Below, piece by piece: positions 31,110 through 33,741 of a stretch of 64,000 nucleotides of DNA. This DNA is from Peredibacter starrii (GTDB lineage Bacteria > Bdellovibrionota > Bacteriovoracia > Bacteriovoracales > Bacteriovoracaceae). Both the position numbers and the translations under genes were made by a program. Location of the stretch: positions 558,001 to 622,000 of the forward strand of contig NZ_CP139487.1 in NCBI RefSeq assembly GCF_034259205.1. Reading direction: 5' to 3'. Positions within the stretch are counted from its first letter, which is position 1; each line of letters starts with the position of its first letter. The notes beneath the pieces are model-generated. The model made no database searches. It was not told the origin of the DNA and saw nothing but the letters and a program-made list of their open reading frames with translations.

Positions 31110-32960
31110 ATGCATACTTTCACACCTGACCATCTGATTGGGCTAATTTCTGCCGGTTATCACGGCCTAATTGCCTACATCGATAAAGAGTTTAAGTATC
31201 ATTTTGTGAATGAGTACTACCAAGATTGGTTTGGTCAAAATCCTTCTGAATTAATTGGTAAATCTGCAATGGAAGTCATTGGCAAAGAGGCCTTTGCAGA
31301 ACGTCTTCCTTATCTCGAGCGAGTTCTTCGCGGTGAAAAATTAAAATTCTTTTCTTATCTTCCTCATAAAACTTTGGGCCGTCGTGAAGTTGAACAAATC
31401 TATCATCCTGACATCAAGGAAGACGGATCAATCCGCGGATTCATTGTTATGGTTCGTGATATTACAGATCAACGAAGGGCCGAACGAGTTGCACAGGAGA
31501 GTGAAGCAAGATTCAGGGGTTTGACTGAAGTCATGCCTCAGATTGTTTGGATCACAGACGATGAAGGTAAAGCGATTTTTTTTAACAATAACTTTTCACG
31601 AGTTACTAATACTCGCATGGAAGATAATCTTGGAAATGGTTGGGTCAATTCGGTTCACCCTGAAGACAGAGTAAATCTCATTCTTCAGTGGGGCGAATCC
31701 ATAAAGCATGGTTCACCATTTGAGGCCGATTATCGCATTAGAATGGCAGATGGAAGTTATCGTTGGCATGTTGCCCGCGGTATTCCGATCAAAAATGAGA
31801 AAGGGAAAGTTGAAAGATGGGCGGGCACGACCACAGATATTGAAGATCAAAAAAATGCCCGGGTTCTCGCGGATAAAGAAAGAGAACGAATTTACTCTCT
31901 CTTCATGCAAGCGCCAGTATTAATTGCTGTCATGAATGGGCCCGATCATATTTTTGAAATGATCAATCCTGCAGGAATAAAAAATCTTGGTGGAAAACAA
32001 GTCATTGGTCTTCCTTTAAAAGACGCTCTTCCTGAGTTCATCCCTCAAGGGTTTGTAAAACTCATGGATGAAATTTATTTCAGCGGTAAGGGAATGTTTT
32101 TTCCCGCTCGCGAACTCCACATTCAAAATGCCGACGGTACTAAAATTGAAACTTATCAGGATCTTTTTTACGAACCAATTAAAGACGAGAATGGTCTTAC
32201 GACTGGTATCCTCTCAATGGCAGTTGATGTTACTGAGCAAGTGAAGGCCTTGAAGAACATGGAAGAGGCCCTCAAGTCGAGAGATCAATTCTTGTCTATT
32301 GCTTCTCACGAATTAAAAACACCTTTGACCTCACTTAAACTTCAATCTCAACTTACTTTGAGAATGCTCGAAAAAAACAATGAGATTCCAACGGAAAGAC
32401 AGAAGCTTCAGGCCCTACAGCAAAGTGATTTAGTGACCAAACTTACTCGTCTCATTGATGACATGTTGGATGTATCGCGAATCAGAACCGGTAAACTCAA
32501 TCTTGAAAAAGGTCAGCATGAGATTGGTGATATCGTAAGGGAAGTGGTTTTTCGGATGGGGCTTCTCTTCGAAGCTGCAGGGATTCCATTGCCCGCAGTA
32601 AAAGCTGACAGCAAAATGTCGGGTCTTTGGGATCGTTTTAGATTGGAGCAAGTCATTGGAAATCTTCTGACCAATGCTATTCGTTACGGTAAAGGCAGGC
32701 CGATTGAAATTCTTATCGAGAAGAAAGGCACTATGGCGTCAGTCTCGGTGACCGATCAAGGTTATGGAATTGATAAAGTCGATTTGGAAAGAATTTTTGG
32801 CCGTTTCGAAAGAGCGTCACATTCTGCTGAGGTAAGCGGTTTAGGTCTGGGACTTTTTATTTCCAAAGAAATTATCGAATCTCATCACGGGAAAATTTTC
32901 GTTACCAGTCGCTTAGGACATGGTTCTACTTTCACCTTCGAAATTCCTATTAATAGTTAA
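31110..32960 (+). CDS. PAS-domain sensor histidine kinase
   Basis: The 616-residue kinase has no membrane helix. Three PAS domains (about 5-125, 130-250 with PAC-type RWAGTTTDIEDQK, and 260-380) precede the H-box SIASHELKTPLTS (His about 400). The ATPase has the N-box NLLTNAIRYG, the G1 box DQGYGID and the G2 box GLGLGLFISKEII. It should autophosphorylate in response to a cytosolic or membrane-derived signal. No response regulator is adjacent, so the partner is unknown. Its kinase core closely resembles that of the gene at 39861, suggesting paralogy. Confidence 0.9.
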   Translation: MHTFTPDHLIGLISAGYHGLIAYIDKEFKYHFVNEYYQDWFGQNPSELIGKSAMEVIGKEAFAERLPYLERVLRGEKLKFFSYLPHKTLGRREVEQIYHPDIKEDGSIRGFIVMVRDITDQRRAERVAQESEARFRGLTEVMPQIVWITDDEGKAIFFNNNFSRVTNTRMEDNLGNGWVNSVHPEDRVNLILQWGESIKHGSPFEADYRIRMADGSYRWHVARGIPIKNEKGKVERWAGTTTDIEDQKNARVLADKERERIYSLFMQAPVLIAVMNGPDHIFEMINPAGIKNLGGKQVIGLPLKDALPEFIPQGFVKLMDEIYFSGKGMFFPARELHIQNADGTKIETYQDLFYEPIKDENGLTTGILSMAVDVTEQVKALKNMEEALKSRDQFLSIASHELKTPLTSLKLQSQLTLRMLEKNNEIPTERQKLQALQQSDLVTKLTRLIDDMLDVSRIRTGKLNLEKGQHEIGDIVREVVFRMGLLFEAAGIPLPAVKADSKMSGLWDRFRLEQVIGNLLTNAIRYGKGRPIEILIEKKGTMASVSVTDQGYGIDKVDLERIFGRFERASHSAEVSGLGLGLFISKEIIESHHGKIFVTSRLGHGSTFTFEIPINS

Positions 32961-32997: not shown

Positions 32998-33026
32998 TTC
33001 AACACTAACATCGGTAGCGCTATACT
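32998..33026 (+). promoter_or_regulatory. Putative promoter of the small RNA
   Basis: TTCAAC (32998-33003), a 17-bp spacer and TATACT (33021-33026; five of six match). The expected transcript start, 7-8 nt later, coincides with the first base of the hairpin at 33034. Confidence 0.45.
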
Positions 33027-33033
33027 GGTTTTA

Positions 33034-33107
33034 GTTCATAGATCAGCAGAGTAAAATCTGAAGATAGATGAACGGAAAGATGGCCACCGTAAAAAGTGGC
33101 CATTTTT
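33034..33107 (+). ncRNA. Candidate small RNA, about 74 nt, two hairpins
   Basis: The 5' hairpin (33034-33073) has stems GTTCAT/ATGAAC, ATC/GAT and CAGA/TCTG, separated by symmetric 2x2 internal loops AG/AG and AG/AA, with loop GTAAAA. It is followed by the linker CGGAAAGA and a textbook terminator. A promoter-like element lies exactly in place upstream, and no open frame is present. Alternative: the 3' untranslated region of the kinase gene. Confidence 0.5.
33081..33107 (+). terminator. Intrinsic terminator
   Basis: TGGCCAC-N8-GTGGCCA followed by TTTTT, 80 bp upstream of the glutathione peroxidase start. Confidence 0.88.
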
Positions 33108-33186
33108 ATTTCGAAAAGTGTTCTGAGAATCTAATAAATCCGCTAACATTATTGAGCAATTTCAGTCATCAAAACCGGGAGTTTTT

Positions 33187-33741
33187 ATGTCTCAAAACGT
33201 CTACTCGTTTAATGTTAAAAAAATTGATGGAAGCCAAGCATCGCTAAATGATTACAAGGGCCAGGTCATGTTGGTTGTGAATGTTGCCTCAAAATGTGGT
33301 TTAACTCCACAGTATGATGGTCTTGAAAAGCTTCACGAAAACTACCATTCGAAAGGTCTTGCTGTACTTGGTTTTCCTGCAAACGAATTTCTTGCTCAGG
33401 AGCCGGGAACAAATGCAGAGATTCAAGAATTCTGCCGCATGAATTACGGGATCAAGTTCCCAATGTTTGAGAAGATTGTGGTTAAAGGCGATGGCCAACA
33501 TCCGCTTTATGCTTTCTTAACTGAGACAAAACCTAATGCCACAATGAAACCTGATGGAACTCTGATTGAACGTTTGAAATCAAAAGGTCTTCTTTCTGGT
33601 AAAGACAATGACATCAAATGGAACTTTGAAAAATTCCTCATTAACAGAAAAGGTGAAGTGGTAGATCGATTCTCCCCTGAGTTAGATCCACAAGACCCGA
33701 TCATCGTTAAGGCAGTGGAGAGAGAACTTGCTGCACTTTAA
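33187..33741 (+). CDS. Glutathione peroxidase family protein
   Basis: The 184-residue thioredoxin-fold protein has the peroxidatic motif NVASKCGLTPQY (Cys, not Sec), GFPANEF, and KWNFEKFLINRKG near the C-terminus with the catalytic Trp and Asn. It reduces hydroperoxides with thioredoxin or glutathione in the cytosol; no signal peptide is present. Although the family is named for glutathione, Cys-type members often use thioredoxin. It overlaps the downstream secreted-protein gene by 14 bp. Confidence 0.92.
   Translation: MSQNVYSFNVKKIDGSQASLNDYKGQVMLVVNVASKCGLTPQYDGLEKLHENYHSKGLAVLGFPANEFLAQEPGTNAEIQEFCRMNYGIKFPMFEKIVVKGDGQHPLYAFLTETKPNATMKPDGTLIERLKSKGLLSGKDNDIKWNFEKFLINRKGEVVDRFSPELDPQDPIIVKAVERELAAL

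Follow-up and report, generated by a model that had tools for sequence, protein, structure and literature searches.

Qrr1-4, RsmX/Y/Z and CsrB/C are multicopy small RNA (sRNA) families, each under the control of one activator. Hairpins of the GNRA or lambda boxB type are read by proteins, and GNRA loops are also common stable caps that need not be recognition sites. Among predatory bacteria, the available text of one report on Bdellovibrio bacteriovorus describes eight attack-phase sRNAs, including merRNA, which is 445 nt long and contains a c-di-GMP riboswitch, and it reports no significant homology of these sRNAs outside that species (PMC3627812). A search of the mostly open-access literature on Bacteriovorax, Bacteriovoracaceae, Halobacteriovorax and Bdellovibrio revealed no apparent sRNA for Bacteriovorax-type predators.

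The window analyzed here is a 64,000-nt stretch of the Peredibacter starrii genome, and it contains a candidate sRNA gene. Comparison of genomes indicates that the RNA is one of a multicopy family, and the family itself is well supported. Like the Qrr, Rsm and Csr sets, the family has several diverged copies per genome, a regulator-like upstream site in most copies, stem-loops and an intrinsic terminator, but it differs from them in having no GGA enrichment, no detectable Hfq and no match in Rfam. Like the hairpins that are read by proteins, it has stem ends capped by GNRA, or perhaps GNRA-like, loops, although these loops sit in a free small RNA and a GUNAWA hexaloop is also used. As far as the available text describes the attack-phase sRNAs of B. 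bacteriovorus, the RNA resembles them in being intergenic and in coming from the same phylum of predators; it differs from merRNA in that the window locus has no riboswitch match in Rfam.

The window locus and its predicted fold

The preliminary description of this DNA reported a promoter-like TTCAAC-17-TATACT, a 40-nt hairpin and a terminator-like hairpin, and all three are found where it placed them (Table 1). The 23-bp upstream site and the multicopy nature of the RNA were absent from it.

Table 1. Features of the candidate sRNA locus and its flanking genes (positions within the window)
Feature	Position	Strand	Basis and remarks
Candidate transcription factor-binding site, CTTGC-N6-ATTCAGGATAAA	32971-32993	+	About -63 to -40 from the predicted start; near-fixed spacing in other copies
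-35-like hexamer, TTCAAC	32998-33003	+	Sequence; weakly conserved, low information over 20 copies
-10-like hexamer, TATACT	33021-33026	+	Sequence; 17 bp after TTCAAC
Predicted small RNA, about 74 nt	33034-33107	+	Fold, homologues and covariation; 5' end predicted
Hairpin, 40 nt, two 2x2 internal loops	33034-33073	+	Fold; covariation over six copies
GUAAAA hexaloop	33051-33056	+	Same in 6 of 6 window-type copies
Intrinsic-terminator-like hairpin	33076-33107	+	Fold; a similar hairpin follows the RNA body in 20 of 20 copies
Histidine kinase gene (PAS/HisKA/HATPase), upstream context	31110-32960	+	Outside the RNA
Glutathione peroxidase gene, downstream context	33187-33741	+	Adjacency to the RNA not conserved

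The hairpin consists of stems of 6, 3 and 4 bp with the two symmetric internal loops between them, and the terminator has a stem of 12 bp (33076-33087 with 33096-33107) with U's at the end. The linker between the two, described earlier as 8 nt, measures 2 nt when the fold is predicted; a length of 8 nt is obtained only by leaving the outer terminator pairs uncounted. The RNA at 33028-33113 has a minimum free energy of -32.0 kcal/mol compared with -11.8 (SD 2.5) for shuffled sequences (z -8.0, with 0 of 200 shuffles as good); over three copies of the family the z values are -8.0, -4.4 and -5.3. A consensus scan found 1 promoter-like site versus 2.4 in shuffled sequences, a count within chance, and the hexamers by themselves are no proof of a promoter. 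It is conservation in the other copies that raises the predicted promoter and hairpin above chance. In the scan the terminator hairpin appeared just for the minus strand; on the plus strand it was probably missed because the U run is consumed by A-U pairs.

Copies, covariation and apical loops

When the genome that holds the window (G000, one contig of 4.15 Mb) was searched at the DNA level, a relative emerged at C1 ~1,518,800 that is 73% identical over the RNA. Another relative was found in genome G018, and these two and the window copy form the first three-copy set, which aligns without gaps save for a paired 3-nt + 3-nt gap across an internal loop. Model R1, made from these three copies, added copies in G018, G025, G009 and G021 (10 of 36 rows accepted). 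Model R2, made from seven copies with no window-type copy among them, returned 21 places (16 accepted) and recovered both the window (E 5.1e-5) and its relative (E 4.5e-6), values that are rough, as for all the models, owing to short calibration. Model R3 was made from fourteen copies. Rows were dropped by eye ahead of counting, on sequence and fold (26 of 36 for R1, of which part were inspected; 5 of 21 for R2, among them G009:C38:24690 at E 0.004; and 1 of 20 for R3, in G024), while the R3 matches G018:C19:324099 and G012:C53:61732 were held uncertain and kept outside the counts. R2 also found, at E 0.026, a third own-genome copy (G000:C1:3,150,709-3,150,811), which was accepted because it matches copy G018b in hairpin, loop, terminator and gene neighbourhood. 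The result is 20 credible copies in 11 of the 26 genus genomes, with four copies in G009, three in G000, two each in G018, G025, G021 and G005, and single copies in G019, G017, G011, G012 and G003. Three of the G009 copies lie inside 45 kb (G009:C17:155,137-200,306), all on the minus strand.

Two architectures occur. Some copies form a single hairpin, as in the window type and in the type of G009a-c; others (e.g., G019, G017 and G021) form a three-way junction that bears two hairpins. The first three-copy alignment has 30 of 30 cells paired and 3 of 10 pairs changed on both sides. The larger alignments (A8 and A9) were made to fit the structure of the model, a procedure that favours that structure; in them the six window-type copies have all 60 cells paired and show changes on both sides in 9 of 10 pairs, and the fourteen other copies have 92.1% of 215 cells paired and 11 of 18 pairs changed on both sides. 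The covariation of the hairpin, put forward in the preliminary description as a check, is therefore borne out. The fourteen-copy covariation score is 0.321, compared with 0.184 for shuffled alignments, none of 500 of which reached it, and no more than 0.081 with the structure slid; the slid controls also drop to ~40% or less paired cells. The first alignments (A4 and A5) are plain MAFFT alignments that agree with A8 and A9, though the sequences aligned were also the source of the structures applied to A4 and A5. In the two nearest relatives of the window copy, the innermost stem is reduced from 4 bp to 2 bp. A conserved and covarying secondary structure, as found here, is a hallmark of a stand-alone intergenic sRNA gene.

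Thirty-one apical loops could be read from the folds of the 20 copies. Sixteen are GNRA loops (GAAA, GAGA, GCAA and GCGA), 12 are GUNAWA loops (GUAAAA, GUCAAA and GUGAUA), and the other three, both of G021b and the first of G011, fall outside both classes.

The terminator type ATGGYCATC...GATGGYCAT also occurs elsewhere in these genomes (L004, L013, L014, L016, L032 and others), and terminator-only matches are therefore no marker of this RNA. Two related RNA-like stretches, L230 (G018:C19:324,099) and L233 (G012:C53:61,732, minus strand), combine a long hairpin with a terminator of this kind and are weak R3 matches; their kinship to the sRNA family is uncertain.

The upstream site and the distribution of the family

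The 23-bp site CTTGC-N6-ATTCAGRATAAA lies ~40 bp before the RNA and is common to most copies. The exact pattern occurs five times in the 26 genus genomes, all five before this RNA (two in the own genome, the others in G021, G025 and G019), and the G019 copy was newly found that way. When up to two mismatches are permitted there are 82 sites, of which 10 are family copies, the downstream sequence having been read for part of the rest; a control pattern with a 7-base instead of a 6-base gap gave no family copy among the sites listed. The ATTCAGGATAAA half is common to the first three copies at an identical distance from the RNA, and the 16-copy consensus, CTTGCG-N2-A-N-AATTYAGRATAAA, ends ~40 bp before the first stem. 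This candidate for an activator site of the Qrr/Rsm kind is clear in most copies and poor or absent in 4 of 20 (G009d, G005b, G012 and G003); the consensus does not include these four. Farther upstream, the flanks of the window copy and its two nearest relatives are 20% identical, which is the level of chance, and those two are 47% identical to each other.

The 16 copies show a visible -10 region and hardly any -35 region, and the six window-type copies have TATACT, TATCCT, TAATCT or TATTCT at the same -10 place. The site beside a weak -35 region suggests an activator. A promoter and terminator of the RNA's own are predicted from the sequence, with the site and -10 region conserved in most copies. 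The earlier proposal of an sRNA with its own promoter and terminator is backed in this way by conserved copies, covariation and genomic contexts.

A degenerate form of the site is also found at L157 (minus strand, G024:C5 ~256,850) and L175 (minus strand, G018:C15 ~337,640), which have TTTCTGAGGGC in common, with a terminator-like hairpin after it. These two loci, for which Rfam gave no match, are possibly a second noncoding RNA family.

The family does not extend to every genome of the genus: under strict filters, 15 of the 26, many of them incomplete, yielded no credible copy. Across 129 genomes of the taxonomic family, R3 gave matches at E up to 0.05 in 12, all in this genus (11 after G024 is dropped), and in none of the 103 genomes of other genera, under strict filters that may miss remote relatives. 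The pattern of the site plus GTTC had 17 matches in a collection of 84,980 species, and the hairpin was present in just two, both Bacteriovoracaceae records (JAIFLR010000085.1, with the copy sequence of G021:C123, and CANFNN010000074.1, with that of G019:C74). The same pattern had two matches in viral contigs, the hairpin being present in neither, and the window sequence had no match in a phage collection. Rfam 15, searched with the entire window and with five further loci, gave zero matches at the gathering score; with E values up to 10 admitted, the best sub-threshold match in the region had E 0.33, which is at chance level. As far as searched, the predicted family is confined to one genus of the Bacteriovoracaceae.

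Gene neighbourhoods and candidate modes of action

The copies have diverse neighbours. The copy at ~1,518,800 is flanked by genes for a DUF1428 protein and a flavin reductase, and its downstream neighbour is encoded on the opposite strand. The third own-genome copy has as neighbours the genes for an OmpR-like response regulator, directly upstream (L238:5802-6536, minus strand), and an acyl-ACP thioesterase; G018b (L078) has the same regulator-first order plus other common neighbours. A regulatory tie of the OmpR-like regulator, or of the window histidine kinase, to the RNA is possible on this arrangement, and the OmpR-like regulator is an initial candidate for the factor that would bind the upstream site. 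Copy G005a adjoins a LigT-like phosphoesterase, a similar protein is encoded beside G021b, and G021a adjoins a phospholipase A1. Neighbourhoods are common between species at three pairs of copies (G000c/G018b, G005a/G021b and G009c/G018a).

The explanation that we favour, with a probability of about 0.55, is that the RNA is the product of a stand-alone sRNA gene from a multicopy, factor-controlled family and acts in trans via its apical loops on a common partner. What the sequence shows of the gene is the upstream site shared with other copies, the -10 region, the hairpin body with its covariation and the predicted terminator hairpin. A transcription factor that binds the -63 to -40 site would switch the copies on together, and the RNAs would then present their GNRA or GUNAWA loops to the partner. 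This partner would more likely be an RNA-binding protein than an mRNA because the loop shape is kept while the letters of loop and stem change, a pattern that appears to favour recognition by a protein or by a folded RNA rather than the use of one antisense seed in common. Our best guess is titration of, or delivery to, an RNA-binding protein. That protein is probably not Hfq, which Hfq-dependent trans-encoded sRNAs require: Hfq (PF17209) was detected in 0 of 26 genus genomes, and 5 of 14 control genomes were matched.

The failure to detect Hfq in the 26 genomes also bears on a reading to which we give perhaps one chance in a handful or slightly better, in which the RNA is a base-pairing regulator whose GUAAAA loop and neighbouring bases form a seed for U-rich mRNAs, acting independently of Hfq or with another chaperone. 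A U-tailed terminator is typical of base-pairing regulatory RNAs, and GUAAAA is invariant in the six window-type copies, distant ones included. The other loops of the family are hardly compatible with a shared seed, however, and one of the two pairs that close GUAAAA is changed on both sides in one copy. Titration of CsrA by an RNA of the CsrB/RsmZ kind is improbable. CsrA is encoded in 24 of 26 genus genomes, the own genome included, Hfq was not found, and four GGA occur in the hairpin body of one relative (L002), but the window core has none and the cores of the 20 copies together have 28 against a shuffled mean of 27.7, which is no enrichment. A sponge of this type was rejected on the lack of repeated GGA motifs in the loops, csrA being present.

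It is comparably improbable that the RNA is a cis element, either a leader or attenuator of the peroxidase gene or the 3' untranslated region of the histidine kinase gene. The window RNA does lie between two genes that are co-directed with it, and its terminator hairpin ends 79 nt before the peroxidase start codon. Unrelated genes stand beside other copies, however, and the other copies whose neighbours were examined do not lie behind a histidine kinase, so the objection that the RNA is merely the kinase 3' untranslated region failed. Fourteen copies have a callable downstream open reading frame, and in 8 of them it runs on the opposite strand; the RNA is therefore not a general cis leader. 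Eight other genus genomes encode a peroxidase at least 60% identical, and none was found to have a copy adjacent; in the stretches around these orthologues the only copy is in G021, ~4.7 kb away, and a stress link is thus unsupported. A cis leader of the peroxidase gene was rejected for want of a conserved upstream position, and the peroxide-stress link that the preliminary description had drawn from the placement of the RNA lost its support with the adjacency; its small RNA with a predicted promoter and terminator of its own is supported. A mobile or repetitive palindromic element of the MITE or REP type is the least probable source. Several dispersed copies per genome and the G009 cluster would fit such an element, whereas strong divergence with compensatory changes, a preserved order of promoter, body and terminator, and the three loci with common neighbours between species speak against it.

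The stand-alone, trans-acting family offers a direct handle on RNA regulation in genomes without detectable Hfq. The upstream site may be used for finding the controlling factor and the loops for fishing the partner. A more specific version, which we advance only tentatively, is that these are genus-specific, fast-diversifying sRNAs under one dedicated transcription factor in a lineage without detectable Hfq, with GNRA and GUNAWA loops that serve as decoys or guides for an RNA-binding protein. If this is true, the family would represent a post-transcriptional system of its own kind in a predatory lineage.
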